64,000 nt of DNA from Defluviitaleaceae bacterium. Lineage in GTDB: Bacteria > Bacillota > Clostridia > Lachnospirales > WQUN01. Position numbers and translations under genes: made by a program. The stretch is from positions 186,001-250,000 of the forward strand of contig WQZS01000001.1 of the NCBI GenBank assembly GCA_009780585.1, written 5' to 3'. Under the pieces are notes generated by a model. It did no database searches and had not been told where the DNA came from. It saw nothing but the letters and a program-made list of their open reading frames with translations. How positions within the stretch are numbered: position 1 is the stretch's first letter; every line of letters starts with the position of its first letter. This document shows positions 1,301-9,057 of the stretch, piece by piece.

Positions 1301-4300
1301 ATGTCATCCGCAAAGCCCTTCACCCACTTGCATGTCCATACCGAATATTCCCTCCTGGACGGTTCGGCCAAGATTAAAGACCTCGTCAAGCGCACGAAGG
1401 AGCTGGGCATGGACTCGCTCGCCATTACCGACCACGGCGTGATGTACGGCGTCATCGACTTTTACAAAGCGGCGAAAAAGGAAGGAATCAAGCCCATCCT
1501 GGGCTGCGAGGTATACATATCCCCCGGCTCGCGTACGGAAAAATCGAAAAGCGATTGGGGCAACTACCACCATTTGGTCCTGCTGGCGGAGAACGACATC
1601 GGCTACCATAACCTGATCAAGCTCGTATCGCTGGGCTTTACCGAAGGCTTCTATTACCGTCCGCGGATCGATATGGAAATCCTTGAACGCTACAAGGAAG
1701 GCTTGATCGCGTTAAGCGCGTGTCTGTCGGGTGTTATCAGCCGTGTGCTGGACGCCGAAGGGTACGAATCGGCGAAGAAAAAAGCGTTGTTTTACGACGG
1801 GATGTTCGGCCGCGGCAATTTCTTCCTGGAGCTGGGGGGATACGAAGCCGCCGAACAGCAAACCCTCAACCGCGAGCTGCTGCGTATGTCCAAGGAAACG
1901 GATATCCCCCTGGTTGCCACCAACGACGTACACTACATACACGCCGACGACGCCAAGGCGCAGGAAATCCTCCTGTGCATCCAAACGGGCAAGACGATCC
2001 TGGACGACGACCGGATGCAGTTCAACACCGACCAATTTTACCTAAAATCCCCCGAGGAAATGTACGGCCTTTTCCCCCACGCGCGCGAGGCGCTGGAAAA
2101 CACGCAAAAAATCGCCGACCGCTGCCATGTGGAGATCGCGTTCAACCAATATAAGCTGCCCAAATTCAACGTCCCGCAAGAATTCGTAACTTCTGCCCTA
2201 ATAGAGCAGAAGTTACAAACCAAGCCCGAAAATGCCGCCTATTTGTATTTGGAAGACCGCTGCGAAGCGGGCTTGGTTGAACGCTACGGTACGGACGCCC
2301 CTCTGCATAAGGAACGCCTGCACTACGAGTTGTCCGTCATCGGTAACATGGGTTTCGAGGATTACTTCCTGATCGTGTGGGACTTTATCCGCTACGCGCG
2401 GGAAAAGGGGATCATCGTGGGGCCGGGGCGGGGCAGCGGCGCGGGCAGTATCGTGGCGTACGCCCTGCGGATCACCGACGTGGACCCCATCCCGTTTAAT
2501 TTACTCTTTGAAAGGTTCCTCAACCCCGAGCGGATTTCCATGCCCGACTTCGACATCGACTTCTGCATCGAGCGGCGGCAGGAGGTCATCGATTACGTGA
2601 TCGAAACCTACGGGGCGGAAAACGTTTCCCAAATCATCACCTTCGGCACCATGGCCGCGAGAGCCGTGATAAGGGACGTGGGGCGCGCGCTGGCCATGAC
2701 CTACAACGACGTGGACCGCGTGGCCAAGATGGTCCCGATGGAACTAAACATCACGCTCGAACGCGCGCTGGTGATCAACCCCGAATTGCGCCAGGCCTTC
2801 GAACAGGAAGAAGACACGCGCAACCTCATCGATATGGCGTTAAAGCTGGAAGGACTCCCCCGCCACGCGGGGACGCACCCGGCGGGGGTGGTCATCTGCA
2901 ACCGCCCCGTGAGCGAATACGTACCCCTCAACGTAAACGACGGCGTGGTCACCACGCAGTTCCCCATGGGTACGGTCGAGGAATTGGGCTTATTGAAAAT
3001 GGACTTTTTGGGCCTGCGTACGCTCACGGTCATCCGCCGTGCTTCGGAGGAAATCAAACGCGGCAAAAACATCGATATAAACGTATTGGATTGGCAGCTC
3101 GGCTACGAGGACCCCAAGGTATATGAAATGATCGGCCAAGGGCGTACGGGCGGCGTCTTCCAATTGGAAAGCTCGGGCATGACGTCCACCATGCGCGACA
3201 TGCAGCCCCGCAACCTCGAAGACCTGACGGCGGGCATATCGCTGTACCGCCCGGGGCCGATGGACTACATCCCCCAATACATCAAAGGCAAGCGGAACCC
3301 GACGAAGATCAAGTACATGCACGCCACCCTGGAGCCGATCCTTAAGGTAACGTACGGTTGTATGGTGTACCAGGAGCAAGTCATGCAAATCGTACGGGAC
3401 TTAGCGGGCTACAGCCTGGGCCGAAGCGACCTGGTGCGGCGTGCCATGTCCAAAAAGCAAGCGGACGTGATGGACAAGGAACGCGAGAACTTTATCCACG
3501 GTTCACCGGAAGCCGGTGTCCCCGGATGCGTCAAAAACGGCATCCCCGAAAAAATTGCCTCGGACATCTTCGACGCGATGGAAAAGTTCGCCGCATACGC
3601 CTTTAACAAACCCCACGGTGTGGGTTACGCGGTCGTCAGCTACCAAACCGCGTGGCTCAAATATTACCACCCCGTGGAATTTATGGCCGCCACCATGTCC
3701 AGCATGATGGACAATACCGCAAAGGTAGCCGCCTACATCCACGAATGTAAGAAAATGGGCATCTCCCTCCTCCCCCCCGATATTAACGAAGGCTTCCAAG
3801 GCTTCAGCGTATCGGGCAAGTCCATCCGCTTCGGATTGGCGGCTATTAAGAACGTGGGGCGGGGCGCGGTGGACGCCATCGTAGCCGAACGCGAAGAAAA
3901 CGGTAAATTCGCGGGCATTACCGACTTCATTAACCGCTTGCCCGGCGGCGAAATCAACAAACGCTGTATCGAAAGCCTGATCAAAGCCGGCGCGTTCGAT
4001 TCCCTTGGCGGCAAGCGCGTGCAATATATGGCCGTGTTCCCCGGCATCGTGGACGGCATGGCGCAAGCGAAGAAATCGACGCTGGACGGGCAGCTTTCCC
4101 TCTTTGACTTGGAAGAGGAAGCCGCACCCCAATCCTTCCACGCGGACGAGTTCCCGCCGCTTAACGAACTGCCCAAACGCCAGCTATTAGCGGATGAAAA
4201 GGAAATGATGGGTATCTACGTCAGCGGCCATCCCCTGTCGGACTACGAAGCCGCCCTGCGCCGCTACACCAAACACACGAGCTTGGACTTTTCAAGCGAA

Positions 4301-4876
4301 TCGTCTGAAGGCGCGGGCGTACACGACGGCGAAGAAGTGAAGTACGGAGGCTTTATCACCGCCAAATCGGTCAAATACACCAAAAAAGACGGCCGCCCCA
4401 TGTGCTTCCTAACCGTGGAGGACCTGTACGGCTCGGTCGAAGTTATCGTCTTCGCCAACCAATACGAAAAGCAAGGCCACCGCCTGCAAAACGAACAAGT
4501 GGTAATCGTGCAAGGCAGGGTAAGCGTACGGGAGGAAGAAGACGCGAAAATCGTAGCGAACGAATTGCTTATGTATGAGGATATACCCCGCGGCGACGTT
4601 CTTCCATCGTCCGCTCCCCAACCATCGCCGACGGTATCACCCTCCGACGAAAAACCTAAAACCCTTTGGCTTAAGATATCGATCAACCGCGACATCGCCC
4701 TGCGGGACATTACGGATATCCTCTCCGCTTACCCGGGGGATACGCAAGTGATGATTTACAATGAACAAAGCGGGCAAAAGTTCGCCGCTAACAGGAACTA
4801 CAGGATCCGCCCCGACGCGGAACTGGCCCATAAATTAAAGGAGCTGCTGGGCGACGACGCGGTGAAGGTGGTTTAA
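1301..4876 (+). CDS. dnaE: DNA polymerase III subunit alpha (DnaE)
   Basis: This is the replicative polymerase catalytic subunit, 1191 residues long, the normal size for DnaE. The N-terminal PHP domain starts with HVHTEYSLLDG (about residues 9-19). The palm holds GPGRGSGAGS (about 374) and the catalytic PDFDIDF motif (about 413-419). The fingers, a tandem helix-hairpin-helix region and an OB-fold domain follow (YGGFITAKSVKYTKKDG at about 1015), and a short C-terminal tail domain ends the protein. Firmicutes usually pair DnaE with PolC; PolC is not in this window. The gene is alone in its orientation and overlaps the convergent ATPase gene by 4 bases at the stop codons. An 11-bp inverted repeat sits in frame around residue 300 and looks like a small insertion relative to the usual linker between the PHP and palm domains. 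Confidence 0.97.
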   Translation: MSSAKPFTHLHVHTEYSLLDGSAKIKDLVKRTKELGMDSLAITDHGVMYGVIDFYKAAKKEGIKPILGCEVYISPGSRTEKSKSDWGNYHHLVLLAENDIGYHNLIKLVSLGFTEGFYYRPRIDMEILERYKEGLIALSACLSGVISRVLDAEGYESAKKKALFYDGMFGRGNFFLELGGYEAAEQQTLNRELLRMSKETDIPLVATNDVHYIHADDAKAQEILLCIQTGKTILDDDRMQFNTDQFYLKSPEEMYGLFPHAREALENTQKIADRCHVEIAFNQYKLPKFNVPQEFVTSALIEQKLQTKPENAAYLYLEDRCEAGLVERYGTDAPLHKERLHYELSVIGNMGFEDYFLIVWDFIRYAREKGIIVGPGRGSGAGSIVAYALRITDVDPIPFNLLFERFLNPERISMPDFDIDFCIERRQEVIDYVIETYGAENVSQIITFGTMAARAVIRDVGRALAMTYNDVDRVAKMVPMELNITLERALVINPELRQAFEQEEDTRNLIDMALKLEGLPRHAGTHPAGVVICNRPVSEYVPLNVNDGVVTTQFPMGTVEELGLLKMDFLGLRTLTVIRRASEEIKRGKNIDINVLDWQLGYEDPKVYEMIGQGRTGGVFQLESSGMTSTMRDMQPRNLEDLTAGISLYRPGPMDYIPQYIKGKRNPTKIKYMHATLEPILKVTYGCMVYQEQVMQIVRDLAGYSLGRSDLVRRAMSKKQADVMDKERENFIHGSPEAGVPGCVKNGIPEKIASDIFDAMEKFAAYAFNKPHGVGYAVVSYQTAWLKYYHPVEFMAATMSSMMDNTAKVAAYIHECKKMGISLLPPDINEGFQGFSVSGKSIRFGLAAIKNVGRGAVDAIVAEREENGKFAGITDFINRLPGGEINKRCIESLIKAGAFDSLGGKRVQYMAVFPGIVDGMAQAKKSTLDGQLSLFDLEEEAAPQSFHADEFPPLNELPKRQLLADEKEMMGIYVSGHPLSDYEAALRRYTKHTSLDFSSESSEGAGVHDGEEVKYGGFITAKSVKYTKKDGRPMCFLTVEDLYGSVEVIVFANQYEKQGHRLQNEQVVIVQGRVSVREEEDAKIVANELLMYEDIPRGDVLPSSAPQPSPTVSPSDEKPKTLWLKISINRDIALRDITDILSAYPGDTQVMIYNEQSGQKFAANRNYRIRPDAELAHKLKELLGDDAVKVV
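2186..2216. repeat. Perfect 11-bp inverted repeat inside dnaE
   Basis: GTAACTTCTGC and its exact complement flank a 9-base loop. The segment is translated in frame (around residues 296-306, VTSALIEQKL) between KLPKFNVPQ and a conserved YLYLEDRCEAGL stretch. It resembles a palindromic element accommodated in a surface loop. Confidence 0.7.
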
Positions 4877-6261
4877 ATGTCCCGATAGGGGATTAACATT
4901 ATGTTTGCCGCGGCATCGGCTCTTTTTATCGCAGCATCGGTAAAACCTGTTTTCGCGAATATAAAATAATGTTTGTTACCGTAATGAAACAAGCCGCTGC
5001 GTTCAACCAACGTTTCGATTACATTTACATTTACGTGTTGATTCGTCCATTTACATTTCGCAAAAATGGCATCATCTTTGTTGTCCGCAATTATGTCGAT
5101 TTCACATTCCTCTTTTTTTCTTTTATCCGTTCCCCACCAGCGCCCGGCATCCGTAAAGATAAAAGGCAGTTGCCTTGACAAATTTTGCCGCCATAAATAT
5201 TGCTTGCAAATCTCCTCAAACACGCCGCCCATGTAAGCGGTTATTTGCGGCTTTATTTGACCGTATGCCAAATCGGCTTCGCCCCGTTGGATAAACGCCA
5301 TATTATCGGGTATAAAGCGATACCAAAACCGAAACATCCCGTCATTAAGGGAATAGATCGTTCTCTTGCTTATTTCCTCACGGAAGGGGTGTTCCTTTTT
5401 AACGATACCGATAGACATGAGCTTATTGATATAGGAGGAACACAGCCCGCTTTCCATCCCGACCTTTCCCGCGATTTCCGACAAACGGGACGCGCCGCCC
5501 GCAATCGCCCGAATAATCGCGTTGTATTGCGCGGGTTCGCGACATTCCTGTTTAATAAGGTTCCCCGGTTCTTCAAACAGGTATCCGGCGGGCGACAGAA
5601 AACCTTGCTTGATGTTGTCCTCAACGCTGAGTTTTTTGTCCATTAACGAAAGGTACAGCGGAACACCGCCGGTTATGCCGTACAATAAAGCAACGTCTTC
5701 CCTGTCGAAACCGTCGTTTGCAAAGTATTCCCTTGTTTGGGCGAAATCGAAGGGCAGGATTTTCATTTGTGCCGTCCTGCGGCCATACAGCGGGCTTTTG
5801 TATCCCAACACTTGATTTTCCATAAACGAAAGCGACGAACCGCACAGTATAATAAACAATTTCGATGTATCTTTGTATTTATCTATAAAAGTTTGCAACA
5901 AAGAAGAAATACCCCGGTAACCGTACGCGAGGTATGGGTATTCATCAACCGCGAATATAATGCGCCGTGTTTGCGCCGCGTTAAATACCGCTTCCAGCGC
6001 TTCATTATATCCCGTAAAAACCGGCGCGGATGCCGTAAAATCGGTTGAAATCGTAAAAATACTTTTGCTTAGACTATCGAGGTTATCTTTCGCGTTGGTT
6101 TCCTGTCCCGTGAAATATATCGCTTCCTTACCCTTTATGAACTCGGAAATTAAAGCGGTTTTACCGACGCGCCTTCGTCCGTACATAACGACGCATTGGA
6201 ATCTATCCGTTTTATACAACCGTTCAAGCTCATTCATTTCACGCTGCCTGCCGACAAACAT
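4873..6261 (-). CDS. Archaeal-type AAA ATPase with DUF234-like C-terminus
   Basis: The protein has 462 residues. Its N-terminus is FVGRQREMNELERLY, followed by a Walker A motif (GRRRVGKT, about 28-35) and a Walker B-like segment (IIFAVDEYPYLA, about 100). A winged-helix segment (LSEIAGKVGMESGLCSSYINKL) and a C-terminal domain with RWWGTDKRKKEECEIDII and ANCK-like residues follow; the latter resembles a restriction-endonuclease-like fold (E-x-D-hydrophobic). This is the architecture of the archaeal ATPase plus DUF234 family, whose biological role is unclear and which is often found in mobile or accessory settings. AT content rises in and around the gene, which is compatible with acquisition. 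An AAAGGGG site precedes the ATG and a sigma-A-type promoter lies upstream. Confidence 0.85.
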   Translation of the reverse strand: MFVGRQREMNELERLYKTDRFQCVVMYGRRRVGKTALISEFIKGKEAIYFTGQETNAKDNLDSLSKSIFTISTDFTASAPVFTGYNEALEAVFNAAQTRRIIFAVDEYPYLAYGYRGISSLLQTFIDKYKDTSKLFIILCGSSLSFMENQVLGYKSPLYGRRTAQMKILPFDFAQTREYFANDGFDREDVALLYGITGGVPLYLSLMDKKLSVEDNIKQGFLSPAGYLFEEPGNLIKQECREPAQYNAIIRAIAGGASRLSEIAGKVGMESGLCSSYINKLMSIGIVKKEHPFREEISKRTIYSLNDGMFRFWYRFIPDNMAFIQRGEADLAYGQIKPQITAYMGGVFEEICKQYLWRQNLSRQLPFIFTDAGRWWGTDKRKKEECEIDIIADNKDDAIFAKCKWTNQHVNVNVIETLVERSGLFHYGNKHYFIFAKTGFTDAAIKRADAAANIMLIPYRDI

Positions 6262-6324: not shown

Positions 6325-6443
6325 TAATACCCCGATAAAAAATTTAGTCTATATATAATATTTTCGCATAAGTCGATATGGTTCGACAGGAAATTCTATA
6401 TTATTATGTTCGAAGTCCATTAAATCATCCGGAGGTGTTTTGC

Positions 6444-6635
6444 GTGTCGAAAAAGGTTTTAATAAAAATCCTGTGTGTTGGGTTGGCTTGTTGGATGGCG
6501 ATGGCGGGGATATTGGCTTTGTTTCCCGTTCGGGTTGATGCCAATACCGGAACGAATAATCATCCCGTTATAACGCCTTTTGATATAGGGGAAACGGGAA
6601 GACCACCGGGTCGATTGCCTCCCCTTAGGCCGTGA
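6444..6635 (+). CDS. Small secreted Pro-rich peptide precursor (candidate signal peptide)
   Basis: The 63-codon gene starts at GTG 6444, behind a near-perfect GGAGGTG site with a 6-base spacer. The longer in-frame start at 6378 lacks such a site. The product has a basic N-terminus (SKKVLIKI), a hydrophobic segment of about 20 residues and a likely signal-peptidase site near VDA. The short exported tail ends in RPPGRLPPLRP. The gene converges on the HTH-TPR regulator gene, with a rho-independent terminator between them. Precursors of RRNPP-family signalling peptides (Phr, PapR, NprX, SHP) have this size, layout and neighbourhood. I do not recognise the peptide itself. The pheromone role is an inference, and a bacteriocin or lone exported peptide remains possible. 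Confidence 0.6.
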   Translation: MSKKVLIKILCVGLACWMAMAGILALFPVRVDANTGTNNHPVITPFDIGETGRPPGRLPPLRP

Positions 6636-6690
6636 TCGTATCATTACGATACCAAAGAGCAGCTTGACGGCTGCGTTATATACGATAAAG

Positions 6691-6717
6691 CGGCGAGCTT
6701 AGGTTCGCCGTTTTTTT
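6691..6717 (+). terminator. Rho-independent terminator after the small peptide gene
   Basis: A GGCGA/TCGCC hairpin (6692-6709) is followed by a run of seven T. It lies 56 bases past the stop codon. Confidence 0.8.
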
Positions 6718-6734
6718 ATTATTCGATTATCCGA

Positions 6735-8648
6735 TTATTCAAATATTATACCCAGGCGTTCTTTTGTATAATTAAAAATCGCTTTTTGGCTTAAAGGCAT
6801 CTTCATGATAACCGACCCAAAATAAGCTAAAGCGAAATGGGGGATGCTTTCTTCTTTTTGACCCAATTGGAACAGGTTAACGGCTATGTTGATCATAAAC
6901 CGTGACGCGTGCCATAAATCGTTATGCTTTATGCTAAGCTCATACCCGTCCCTTGCCAGTTTTAACGCCTTTGGGCGGTATTCGTTCCTGCCCAAGTACA
7001 TTGTGTAATGGTACAAAACCGTAAGGTATGTCCTCATCCGTTCGGTTTCGTCCACATAATTACTGTCCAGGTTTTTAATTAAGCCGTCAAATATTTTGAG
7101 CCCGCGTTCGCTTTCCCCGTTATCGCATAAATAGATCGCCATATCATTTAATATGATGATTTCATAATAGGTAATCCGTATATCCGCGATCTTGCCTTCA
7201 TTCGGTTTACCCTTGGTCACGAGCCAGGCTTCGGTAAGCAATTGCATGTATCGTTCATCGTATCCCTGTTTATTCCCATATATTTCCGCTTGGTTCATTT
7301 TAATGAATTGCAAGTTTATCTTTTCCCCATATTTTCTTCGGGCCCCCAAATCCGTCAGCAAGGGTTCCGCTTCATGGCATTTTTTGGCGGCGATTAAGGT
7401 GTATATCCGGTCCCTCAGGTATTTATCCTCAAAATCATCTTCATCCAACAATGTATAAAAATATTCGTCTATATCACGCCCCATGCGCTGCATTAACCCT
7501 TCCAACAAATATAAGCCGCCGATCGGGTATTTCGATTTGCTCTTTTCCATACTGTTGAACGTGGATGTGTTGCATAAACCCTTACATAATTCCCGTAATG
7601 TTATTCCCGCGTTTTTACGCAAACCCCGCATCAGTTCGCCGAAGTTGCTGCACGGTATGGATTCACCCCGATCAAAATCCCTATCGGGTATTTTAATGGG
7701 AAGGTTCTCTACGCCGTATGTATCAAAATCAATCCCGATGCTTTGGGCAAACGCCTTTACTTCCCGCGCCTTGGTTATGTTTTGCATAATTACGTAACCA
7801 TGGAAAGCGGACACCAGCATAATACGCAAGCCTTCCTTTTGCCCAAGGTAATTTAATGCCCGCGCTTTGTAATATGTAAAATCGGGTGCATACCTCCCCT
7901 TGGTACGCGTGACGGTCATATCGCCGATACCTTTTTCGCATATCTCCAGCGCTTCGCCGTATTTTCCGGCGTCCGTCAAAAGACGCGCAAGGTCAAGCAT
8001 AACAGGCGCGAGGTGGTGGATTTTATGCTTATCGTCCTGCGGCAAGCGCGACAATCCTTCGTATGCCCTTTGCAATATTTTAATGGCTTTATCCGGTTGG
8101 CCGTCGTTCGCGTACGCCAACGCCTGCGTGTGGATCAACCGCGCTTCTTCATATAACAATACGTCCCCTTCGAAGGTATCGGGGTCGTATTCGGGATAGG
8201 TTATGTATATACCTTCCCGGGTATACGCCAATATTTTATGCGGGTCCATCTTTTGAAGGATGCCCAAACGCGCCCGGCAGCTTAGGGTAAATTGCCTGTT
8301 GATACCGGAATCGAAGCCGCTCAGCTTTTCCATTTGGTCCAGCAATTGAAGCGATTCCTTAAGGCAATCGGGAGCATACGGCGCGCGGTCAAGCGTATAC
8401 AGCAATTTCCCGCGCAGTTTATACACCGCCAGGGGTTGATTTTCCAAAAAAGGATTGAACAATGTACCCGCGGGTATGTCCATCTTATGCATGATTTCCA
8501 TGCTTGTTCTTGCGTAGGGGGCTTGGTGCCCGTTGGATATGCGCGACAGCGTTATGGCGTCGATATTGTCGCCGTGCAACATCGCTTGCCTTAAACGCTT
8601 ACGGTTTCTAAATCCGTTAATCGTGTTGTTTTTATGTATGCTTGGCAT
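6735..8648 (-). CDS. Tandem HTH-TPR regulator, RRNPP-like
   Basis: This 637-residue protein appears to be two XRE-HTH plus TPR units in tandem. The first unit has a partly reduced helix-turn-helix (ITLSRISNGHQAP, about residues 32-44) and then helical repeats. The second HTH lies around residues 340-385 (ELMRGLRKNAGITLREL, then STFNSMEKSKSKYP) and is followed by another set of TPR-like repeats to the C-terminus. TPR regulators with an N-terminal HTH (PlcR, Rgg, NprR, PrgX) bind small exported and re-imported peptides. The facing peptide gene at 6444-6635 fits that role. The start ATG has a GGAGGA site 5 bases upstream. The gene sits downstream of the non-coding RNA, which ends in a terminator about 55 bases before the ATG. 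A TATAAT in the gap may serve as its own promoter. Confidence 0.8.
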   Translation of the reverse strand: MPSIHKNNTINGFRNRKRLRQAMLHGDNIDAITLSRISNGHQAPYARTSMEIMHKMDIPAGTLFNPFLENQPLAVYKLRGKLLYTLDRAPYAPDCLKESLQLLDQMEKLSGFDSGINRQFTLSCRARLGILQKMDPHKILAYTREGIYITYPEYDPDTFEGDVLLYEEARLIHTQALAYANDGQPDKAIKILQRAYEGLSRLPQDDKHKIHHLAPVMLDLARLLTDAGKYGEALEICEKGIGDMTVTRTKGRYAPDFTYYKARALNYLGQKEGLRIMLVSAFHGYVIMQNITKAREVKAFAQSIGIDFDTYGVENLPIKIPDRDFDRGESIPCSNFGELMRGLRKNAGITLRELCKGLCNTSTFNSMEKSKSKYPIGGLYLLEGLMQRMGRDIDEYFYTLLDEDDFEDKYLRDRIYTLIAAKKCHEAEPLLTDLGARRKYGEKINLQFIKMNQAEIYGNKQGYDERYMQLLTEAWLVTKGKPNEGKIADIRITYYEIIILNDMAIYLCDNGESERGLKIFDGLIKNLDSNYVDETERMRTYLTVLYHYTMYLGRNEYRPKALKLARDGYELSIKHNDLWHASRFMINIAVNLFQLGQKEESIPHFALAYFGSVIMKMPLSQKAIFNYTKERLGIIFE

Positions 8649-8701: not shown

Positions 8702-8753
8702 AGAATAAAAATAAACCCTGTACAGGAACATAAAATATGCTCCCGCACAGGGT
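8702..8753 (-). terminator. Rho-independent terminator of ncRNA copy 1
   Basis: On the minus strand, CCCTGT and ACAGGG arms (8752-8747 and 8721-8716) are followed by a T-rich run. The equivalent terminator of copy 2 has CCCTGCGC/GCGCAGGG, so the sixth pair is a compensatory T-A to C-G change. Confidence 0.75.
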
Positions 8754-9023
8754 TTTCACCCGCCTCCCGACGTTACCGGGGAGGCGTTCTTATTCATTTT
8801 TACTCTTTTTCTGTTTTTTTGCTATGTCGTAGAAAAGGTCAGGCGGATATCCATTACATGCATACCTGTGACTCGGCTGCGCAGCCTTTATGAGTCGGTT
8901 GTAAGCCTCGGCGAAGTTAAATCGGGATCGTAAGCATCAGGGACGATTGTACGCAGAAATCGGAATGACCGTGTGCAGTCAGGGTCGTATGGATGCCGTC
9001 CGTCAAGAAGATGGCCTCGGCTT
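8702..9023 (-). ncRNA. Structured non-coding RNA, copy 1
   Basis: A unit of about 320 bases has its own promoter and terminator and no conserved ORF. The first 125 bases or so are nearly identical to the unit at 42711-43032. Both copies can form a closing stem AAGCC/GGCTT extended by GGC/GCC across a GA/AG pair, an inner GCATC/GATGC stem, a GACC/GGTC hairpin and a CGATT/AATCG hairpin. GGACG can also pair with CGTCC, crossing the GCATC/GATGC stem as a pseudoknot. A second conserved box (GGTATGCATGTAATGG) lies nearer the 3' end. Substitutions between copies fall mainly in loops. Copy 2 has a 65-codon ORF here, but copy 1 breaks it by indels. I cannot assign an RNA family from memory. The clostridial raiA-motif class should be tested first. 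Confidence 0.7.
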
Positions 9024-9029
9024 GTGTTG

Positions 9030-9057
9030 ATTATATCCGATTCGAATATATTGTCAA
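9030..9057 (-). promoter_or_regulatory. Strong sigma-A promoter of ncRNA copy 1
   Basis: TTGACA (9057-9052), 16 bases and TATAAT (9035-9030) on the minus strand. Upstream, at 9083-9072, lies AAACATAGGTTC, which is at the same distance in copy 2. Confidence 0.8.

Follow-up and report, generated by a model that had tools for sequence, protein, structure and literature searches.

The receptor and putative precursor genes at the locus

The window analysed here is a 64,000-nucleotide stretch (G000:C1:186001-250000) of a 3.1-Mb draft genome of a Defluviitaleaceae bacterium. Within it, a small gene on the forward strand (6444..6635) and the gene of a 637-residue regulator on the reverse strand (6735..8648; Shine-Dalgarno GCGGAGG) lie in convergent orientation, with 99 nt between them. 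The small gene, proposed to encode a pheromone precursor, starts with GTG at 6444 and specifies a propeptide of 63 amino acids. Its Shine-Dalgarno sequence is GGAGG (6431..6435, +), and GGAGGTGTTTTG is found identically before the small gene of the homologous locus L015. A candidate promoter (TCGATA-18-TATATT; 6373..6402, +) has a weak -35, and a strong intrinsic terminator in the direction of the small gene (6687..6718, +) separates both genes, its hairpin consisting of 12 pairs followed by a T-run (MFE -18.4 kcal/mol, z -4.9). At its N-terminus the precursor is rich in K at the start and has an extended hydrophobic stretch, with a plausible cleavage site for signal peptidase between VDA and NT; from this composition we infer that the product is exported. 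Upstream along the forward strand, a gene for an ATPase_2/DUF234 protein (4873-6261, -) is convergent with an ORF resembling the DNA polymerase III alpha subunit (1301-4876), the two ends overlapping by 4 nt.

Inverted repeats recur at loci of this type. At many of the small genes, a long inverted repeat stands beside a weak -35, its end lying some 6-26 nt ahead of the -10; behind control genes such repeats are uncommon (6% of 230 scored at least 13). At the nearest orthologue of the receptor, L011 (66% identical, genome G002), the small gene is missing and a repeat, ACCATATCGATTTATGCGAAAAAATTTTGCATAAGTCGATATGGT, stands directly after the receptor. The window contains the exact right half of this repeat, GCATAAGTCGATATGGTT (6366..6383, +), placed over the candidate -35 of its small gene as a candidate receptor box; the candidate operator sequence of the 6340-6444 region is GCATAAGTCGATATGG. 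The identity of the half-sites in the window and L011 speaks for an operator, whereas the T-runs on the receptor side of about ten repeats point to termination of the receptor transcript, and the long inverted repeats may be both. A further imperfect inverted repeat of 43 bp (8713..8755, -) upstream of the receptor start is either the terminator of the upstream gene or an operator. In the genome search, exact copies of the box GCATAARTCGATATGGTT were confined to the window site and two L011 sites, and the remaining matches were at control level; no regulon of this box was found. The PlcR box TATGNANNNNTNCATA, a feature of the PlcR subfamily, has no exact match in the window, and its one-mismatch matches there are at chance level. 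The intergenic regions gave no Rfam match and no known RNA; among them is the long stretch that separates the receptor from the aldo/keto reductase gene, where a perfect match to a sigma-70 promoter, TTGACA-16-TATAAT, is located (9030-9057, -). In another genome of the set, G001, the doubled locus L029 and the single-module locus L073 both have near-perfect inverted repeats upstream of their small genes, with the same outer arm, GTCCATAAC.

Architecture and distribution of the doubled receptor

The regulator is composed of two modules. Module 1 (residues 1-330; 7659..8648, -) has a helix-turn-helix (HTH) domain at about 6-55 and a TPR domain at about 73-303, and module 2 (residues 331-637 plus the stop codon; 6735..7658, -) has its HTH at about 336-388 and its TPR at about 403-632. 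When the alignment of 25 doubled members was split at residue 330, HHalign matched module 1 to module 2 over 303 columns with E=3.4e-53. The AlphaFold2 model of the receptor (mean pLDDT 89.9, pTM 0.89) shows TPR helix pairs after each of two HTHs, whose helices lie at 6-55 and 336-388. In Pfam, RNPP_C was matched at residues 493-578, within module 2, together with TPR, and among the doubled members RNPP_C was found in 17 of 25 and HTH_3 in 16 of 25.

PlcR is the closest solved relative by both sequence and fold. It is the best match of the whole profile (E 9.5e-16, residues 334-625, that is, module 2) and ranks first among solved structures for the module 1 profile alone (E 1.5e-11). Foldseek likewise ranked PlcR first for the whole model, and a separate model of module 1 gave PlcR, ComR and Rgg as top matches covering HTH plus TPR. 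Aligned to PlcR with VIA-align, the whole model scored Z 18.3 (280 residues, rmsd 5.0) and the module 1 model Z 19.3 (261 residues, rmsd 9.2). In the whole-model alignment the PlcR chain spans residues 4 to 631, from HTH 1 through TPR 2. PlcR and Rgg form swapped dimers (PMC5131891), and in the predicted model the mapping from HTH 1 to TPR 2 would fit a crossed arrangement of this kind. The first-pass annotation had described the regulator as two HTH-TPR units fused in tandem and had proposed structure prediction as a check; the comparison of the halves, the AlphaFold2 model and the Foldseek matches of module 1 all bear this description out, with an RRNPP receptor as the closest structure. As expected of RRNPP receptors, the protein has an N-terminal HTH and a TPR domain related to theirs, but it departs from their usual form of 250-500 amino acids with one HTH and one TPR in being 637 amino acids long with two of each, each module alone measuring about 310-330 amino acids.

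Doubled members were detected in 10 of 38 genomes of the window's family, representing ten species, and outside it in a single genome from a different family of the same order. Among named relatives the nearest is the MAG WRDO01000058.1 (Defluviitaleaceae), isolate Lab288P3bin217, a name that presumably points to a termite-gut sample. Samples of 391 genomes from the class and 398 from the phylum contained doubled members in the window's own genome only. Genome G001 encodes six doubled receptors and probably a seventh, which contig ends are likely to have split (L033 and L035). The tree of the modules and their single-module relatives has all first halves on one side of a branch with support 92; the second halves all lie on one side of another branch, with support 99, and the two subtrees are mirrored. 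The separation of first-half and second-half clades indicates that the doubling probably happened once, and the module tree is probably best described by one duplication and fusion followed by expansion of paralogues. An origin of the doubling in an assembly or frameshift fusion was ruled out by the 25 aligned doubled members from 11 genomes and by their two mirrored clades. Spread by mobile elements was likewise discarded, as the phage and plasmid collections yielded no doubled protein and only distant single-module matches.

Small exported genes beside homologous receptors

A convergent exported ORF of 44-63 amino acids lies at the 3' end of 13 of the 25 doubled receptors (L001, L002, L012, L015, L019, L022, L023, L024, L025, L026, L027, L028 and L029). 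Its end is no more than about 10 nt from the receptor stop, often with a 4-nt overlap, except in the window, where the distance is 99 nt, and at L029, where it is 20 nt. Under a fixed rule (35-80 amino acids, a Shine-Dalgarno sequence, N-terminal K/R, a hydrophobic segment and a distance of -30 to 250 nt from the receptor stop), such ORFs were counted at 13 of the 26 doubled receptors and at 14 of the 29 with a single module. The positives L018 and L077 are doubtful, and the small ORF of L018 was rejected because its orthologues L016 and L017 are without it; that of L025, whose start is without a clear Shine-Dalgarno sequence, was added by eye. Nearly the same rule, with an upper limit of 75 amino acids and excluding ORFs inside another gene, was applied to 281 control genes from the same genomes, of which only one had a convergent exported ORF bearing a Shine-Dalgarno sequence (Fisher p about 1e-14 against the receptors). 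This control count and the homologues rule out a chance or wrong-frame ORF and, together with the GGAGG and the strong terminator, agree with the earlier call of the 63-residue ORF as a real gene. An adjacent gene for an exported propeptide of 10-100 amino acids, another mark of RRNPP systems, is present, convergent and 63 codons long, with export judged by composition. The convergent arrangement of receptor and exported ORF also occurs in G425, from another family of the class.

Co-conservation of an exported gene, which the first-pass annotation had named as a check, holds beside 13 of the 25 doubled homologues and many single-module ones, but no small exported ORF is detectable beside the other 12, L011 included. 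These are L003, L004, L011, L013, L014, L016-L018, L020, L031, L032 and L034; the contig of L004 stops 177 nt past the receptor stop codon. It is possible that doubled receptors lacking a pheromone gene are eavesdropping receptors.

The homologous precursors have in common a proline core with a short polar tail behind it. The cores read TPFDIG (window and, identically, L012), NPFIIG (L015), TPFCIL (L023), APFSIG (L028), QPWING and HPWENW (L002 and L024, respectively) and SPSSIH and SPTTIF (L022 and L026, respectively), and P-F is present in every member of the window's receptor clade that has a small gene (L001, L012, L015, L023 and L028). In the window the core codons, VITPFDIG, are at 6567..6590 (+), and the stretch around them that is the candidate source of the peptide is HPVITPFDIGETG. 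The Pro-rich tail RPPGRLPPLRP that had first drawn attention to the precursor is indeed there, but it was found in the window alone, the conserved part being VITPFDIG just before it. As judged by sequence, this core resembles the PlcR pheromones: PapR7 is ADLPFEF, with Pro4, Glu6 and Phe7 critical (PMC6568020), and PapRa7, an internal segment of its precursor, is CSIPYEY (PMC3519770). Pairs of receptors with higher identity have more similar precursor tails (Mantel r=0.74, p=2e-4, n=13), a correlation that shows joint inheritance rather than binding and could be produced by common descent.

The same arrangement could be read as a type I toxin-antitoxin-like system, in which the small gene would encode a membrane or secreted peptide toxin kept in check by the regulator transcript that converges on and overlaps the gene. 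Given the stop-to-stop overlaps and the inverted repeats located past the small gene, transcription of the regulator may extend over that gene in antisense, and each precursor has one hydrophobic segment. We regard this as very improbable, since a membrane toxin has no need of a start resembling a signal peptide or of the polar tail behind it, in which a proline core recurs, the genes of the window are separated by a terminator, and the regulator is closest to peptide receptors.

The two pockets and the proposed signaling pair

The two modules differ at the positions of the PlcR asparagines N159 and N201, which we take to contact the peptide. These sites were placed by HMMER sequence alignment to PlcR rather than by coordinates. 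Asn occupies the N201 site in 20 of 25 second modules and 21 of 28 single-module proteins, as against 1 of 25 first modules; at the N159 site the counts are 15/25, 16/28 and 0/25, respectively, and 23 of the 25 first modules have His instead. Module 1 of the window is likewise without the clamp asparagines. An equivalent residue makes a backbone contact in PlcRa (N205; PMC3519770), as does N208 in ComR (PMC5131891). The asparagine counts indicate that a PlcR-like pocket is kept by module 2, while the pocket of module 1 is changed yet conserved, with a His/Thr signature of its own. By this alignment it is most likely module 2 that would read the peptide, although the window is not a textbook case, as its module 2 keeps N501 but has H547, not Asn, at the N201 site.

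We consider it likely that the locus encodes a signaling pair of the PlcR/PapR type whose receptor is a double unit in a single chain. The precursor would be exported and processed to a short peptide around VITPFDIG, which would then be re-imported; the genome encodes three proteins of the peptide-binding SBP_bac_5 type. In the cytoplasm the peptide would bind the concave TPR surface of the 637-residue receptor, most likely in module 2. Both modules would form one covalent pseudo-dimer with two HTHs per chain, replacing the PlcR homodimer, and peptide binding would make the HTHs ready to bind DNA. The promoter of the small gene itself is the likely first target, which would create a positive feedback. 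The pair is probably a real cell-to-cell signaling system, and the earlier proposal of an RRNPP-type pair with a doubled receptor is upheld by the PlcR-like two-module structure and the co-conserved exported gene, the two products being presumed to interact. Our confidence is good rather than high because 12 of the 25 doubled homologues have no small gene and the repeats are ambiguous.

These points also feed other explanations. A doubled RRNPP-like regulator might sense another ligand, either a peptide from elsewhere or a non-peptide metabolite, the small gene being a target or a mere neighbour. The half of the doubled homologues without a small gene and the loss of one clamp asparagine from the window receptor would agree with this, but the tail-to-tail linkage across many divergent loci, the precursor tails that track the receptors and the likeness of the core to PlcR pheromones make it unlikely. 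Doubtful to a greater degree is that the doubling only produced an asymmetric DNA binder that no longer senses peptides, the small ORFs being remnants: although 12 doubled receptors have no small gene and both asparagines are gone from module 1 in nearly all members, most second modules have kept the asparagines, and in divergent genera the small genes retain Shine-Dalgarno sequence, export-like start and core. A tentative extension of the PlcR/PapR-type reading, to which we give a small chance, is a two-input sensor, in which module 2 reads the neighbouring pheromone, module 1 a different ligand, and one chain integrates both signals. If so, the receptors without a neighbouring pheromone gene would listen to the peptides of other species.

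The likeness to PlcR/PapR of the Bacillus cereus group extends from PlcR being the top match of each module in sequence and in fold, with HTH plus TPR, to the adjacent gene for a small exported precursor, the P-[F/Y]-[E/D]-hydrophobic core and the clamp asparagines, which by alignment are here in module 2 of most members. However, PlcR is one module acting as a homodimer, whereas here two modules are in one chain. Also, the pheromone gene of the PlcR subfamily lies downstream in the same direction, and in Bacillales systems immediately downstream of the receptor gene (PMC9765709), whereas here it is convergent and often overlaps the receptor stop. In the B. cereus paralogue pair PlcRa/PapRa, the peptide CSIPYEY is internal in its precursor, as VITPFDIG is here, but the receptor has a single module and papRa is upstream of plcRa, unlike in the window. 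Qsr/QssR (Clostridium), Rgg, ComR, PrgX, NprR, Rap and AimR are likewise cytoplasmic TPR receptors of short peptides, the structures of Rgg and ComR also matching module 1. The validated RRNPP receptors listed by one survey are single units of 285-473 amino acids, and only proteins of 250-500 amino acids were searched (PMC10075063), a size range that puts the doubled form outside its reach. In the open-access literature no description of a doubled RRNPP receptor was found, most subscription papers lying outside the search. Within this scope the fused double receptor stands as a new form, as first supposed. What is new here is the single-chain double receptor with its asymmetric pocket, the pairing of peptide and receptor being of a known kind. 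With unequal modules in one chain it can be asked which half reads the peptide and which the DNA, a question impossible with a symmetric homodimer, and PlcR-like pheromone signaling would be extended to uncultured gut Clostridia.

The same bacteria also have single-module PlcR-like receptors (e.g., L008, L045, L067-L073), which are homologous to the modules and have a convergent, often overlapping exported ORF, but are 305-340 amino acids long with one HTH-TPR unit. A relative of this kind occurs outside the window's family on MT837704.1 (L134), a 6.3-kb contig from human faeces deposited as Bacteriophage sp., where a single-module PlcR-like receptor (977-1903) is convergent with, and overlaps by 4 nt, an ORF for an exported product of 64 amino acids (1900-2094).
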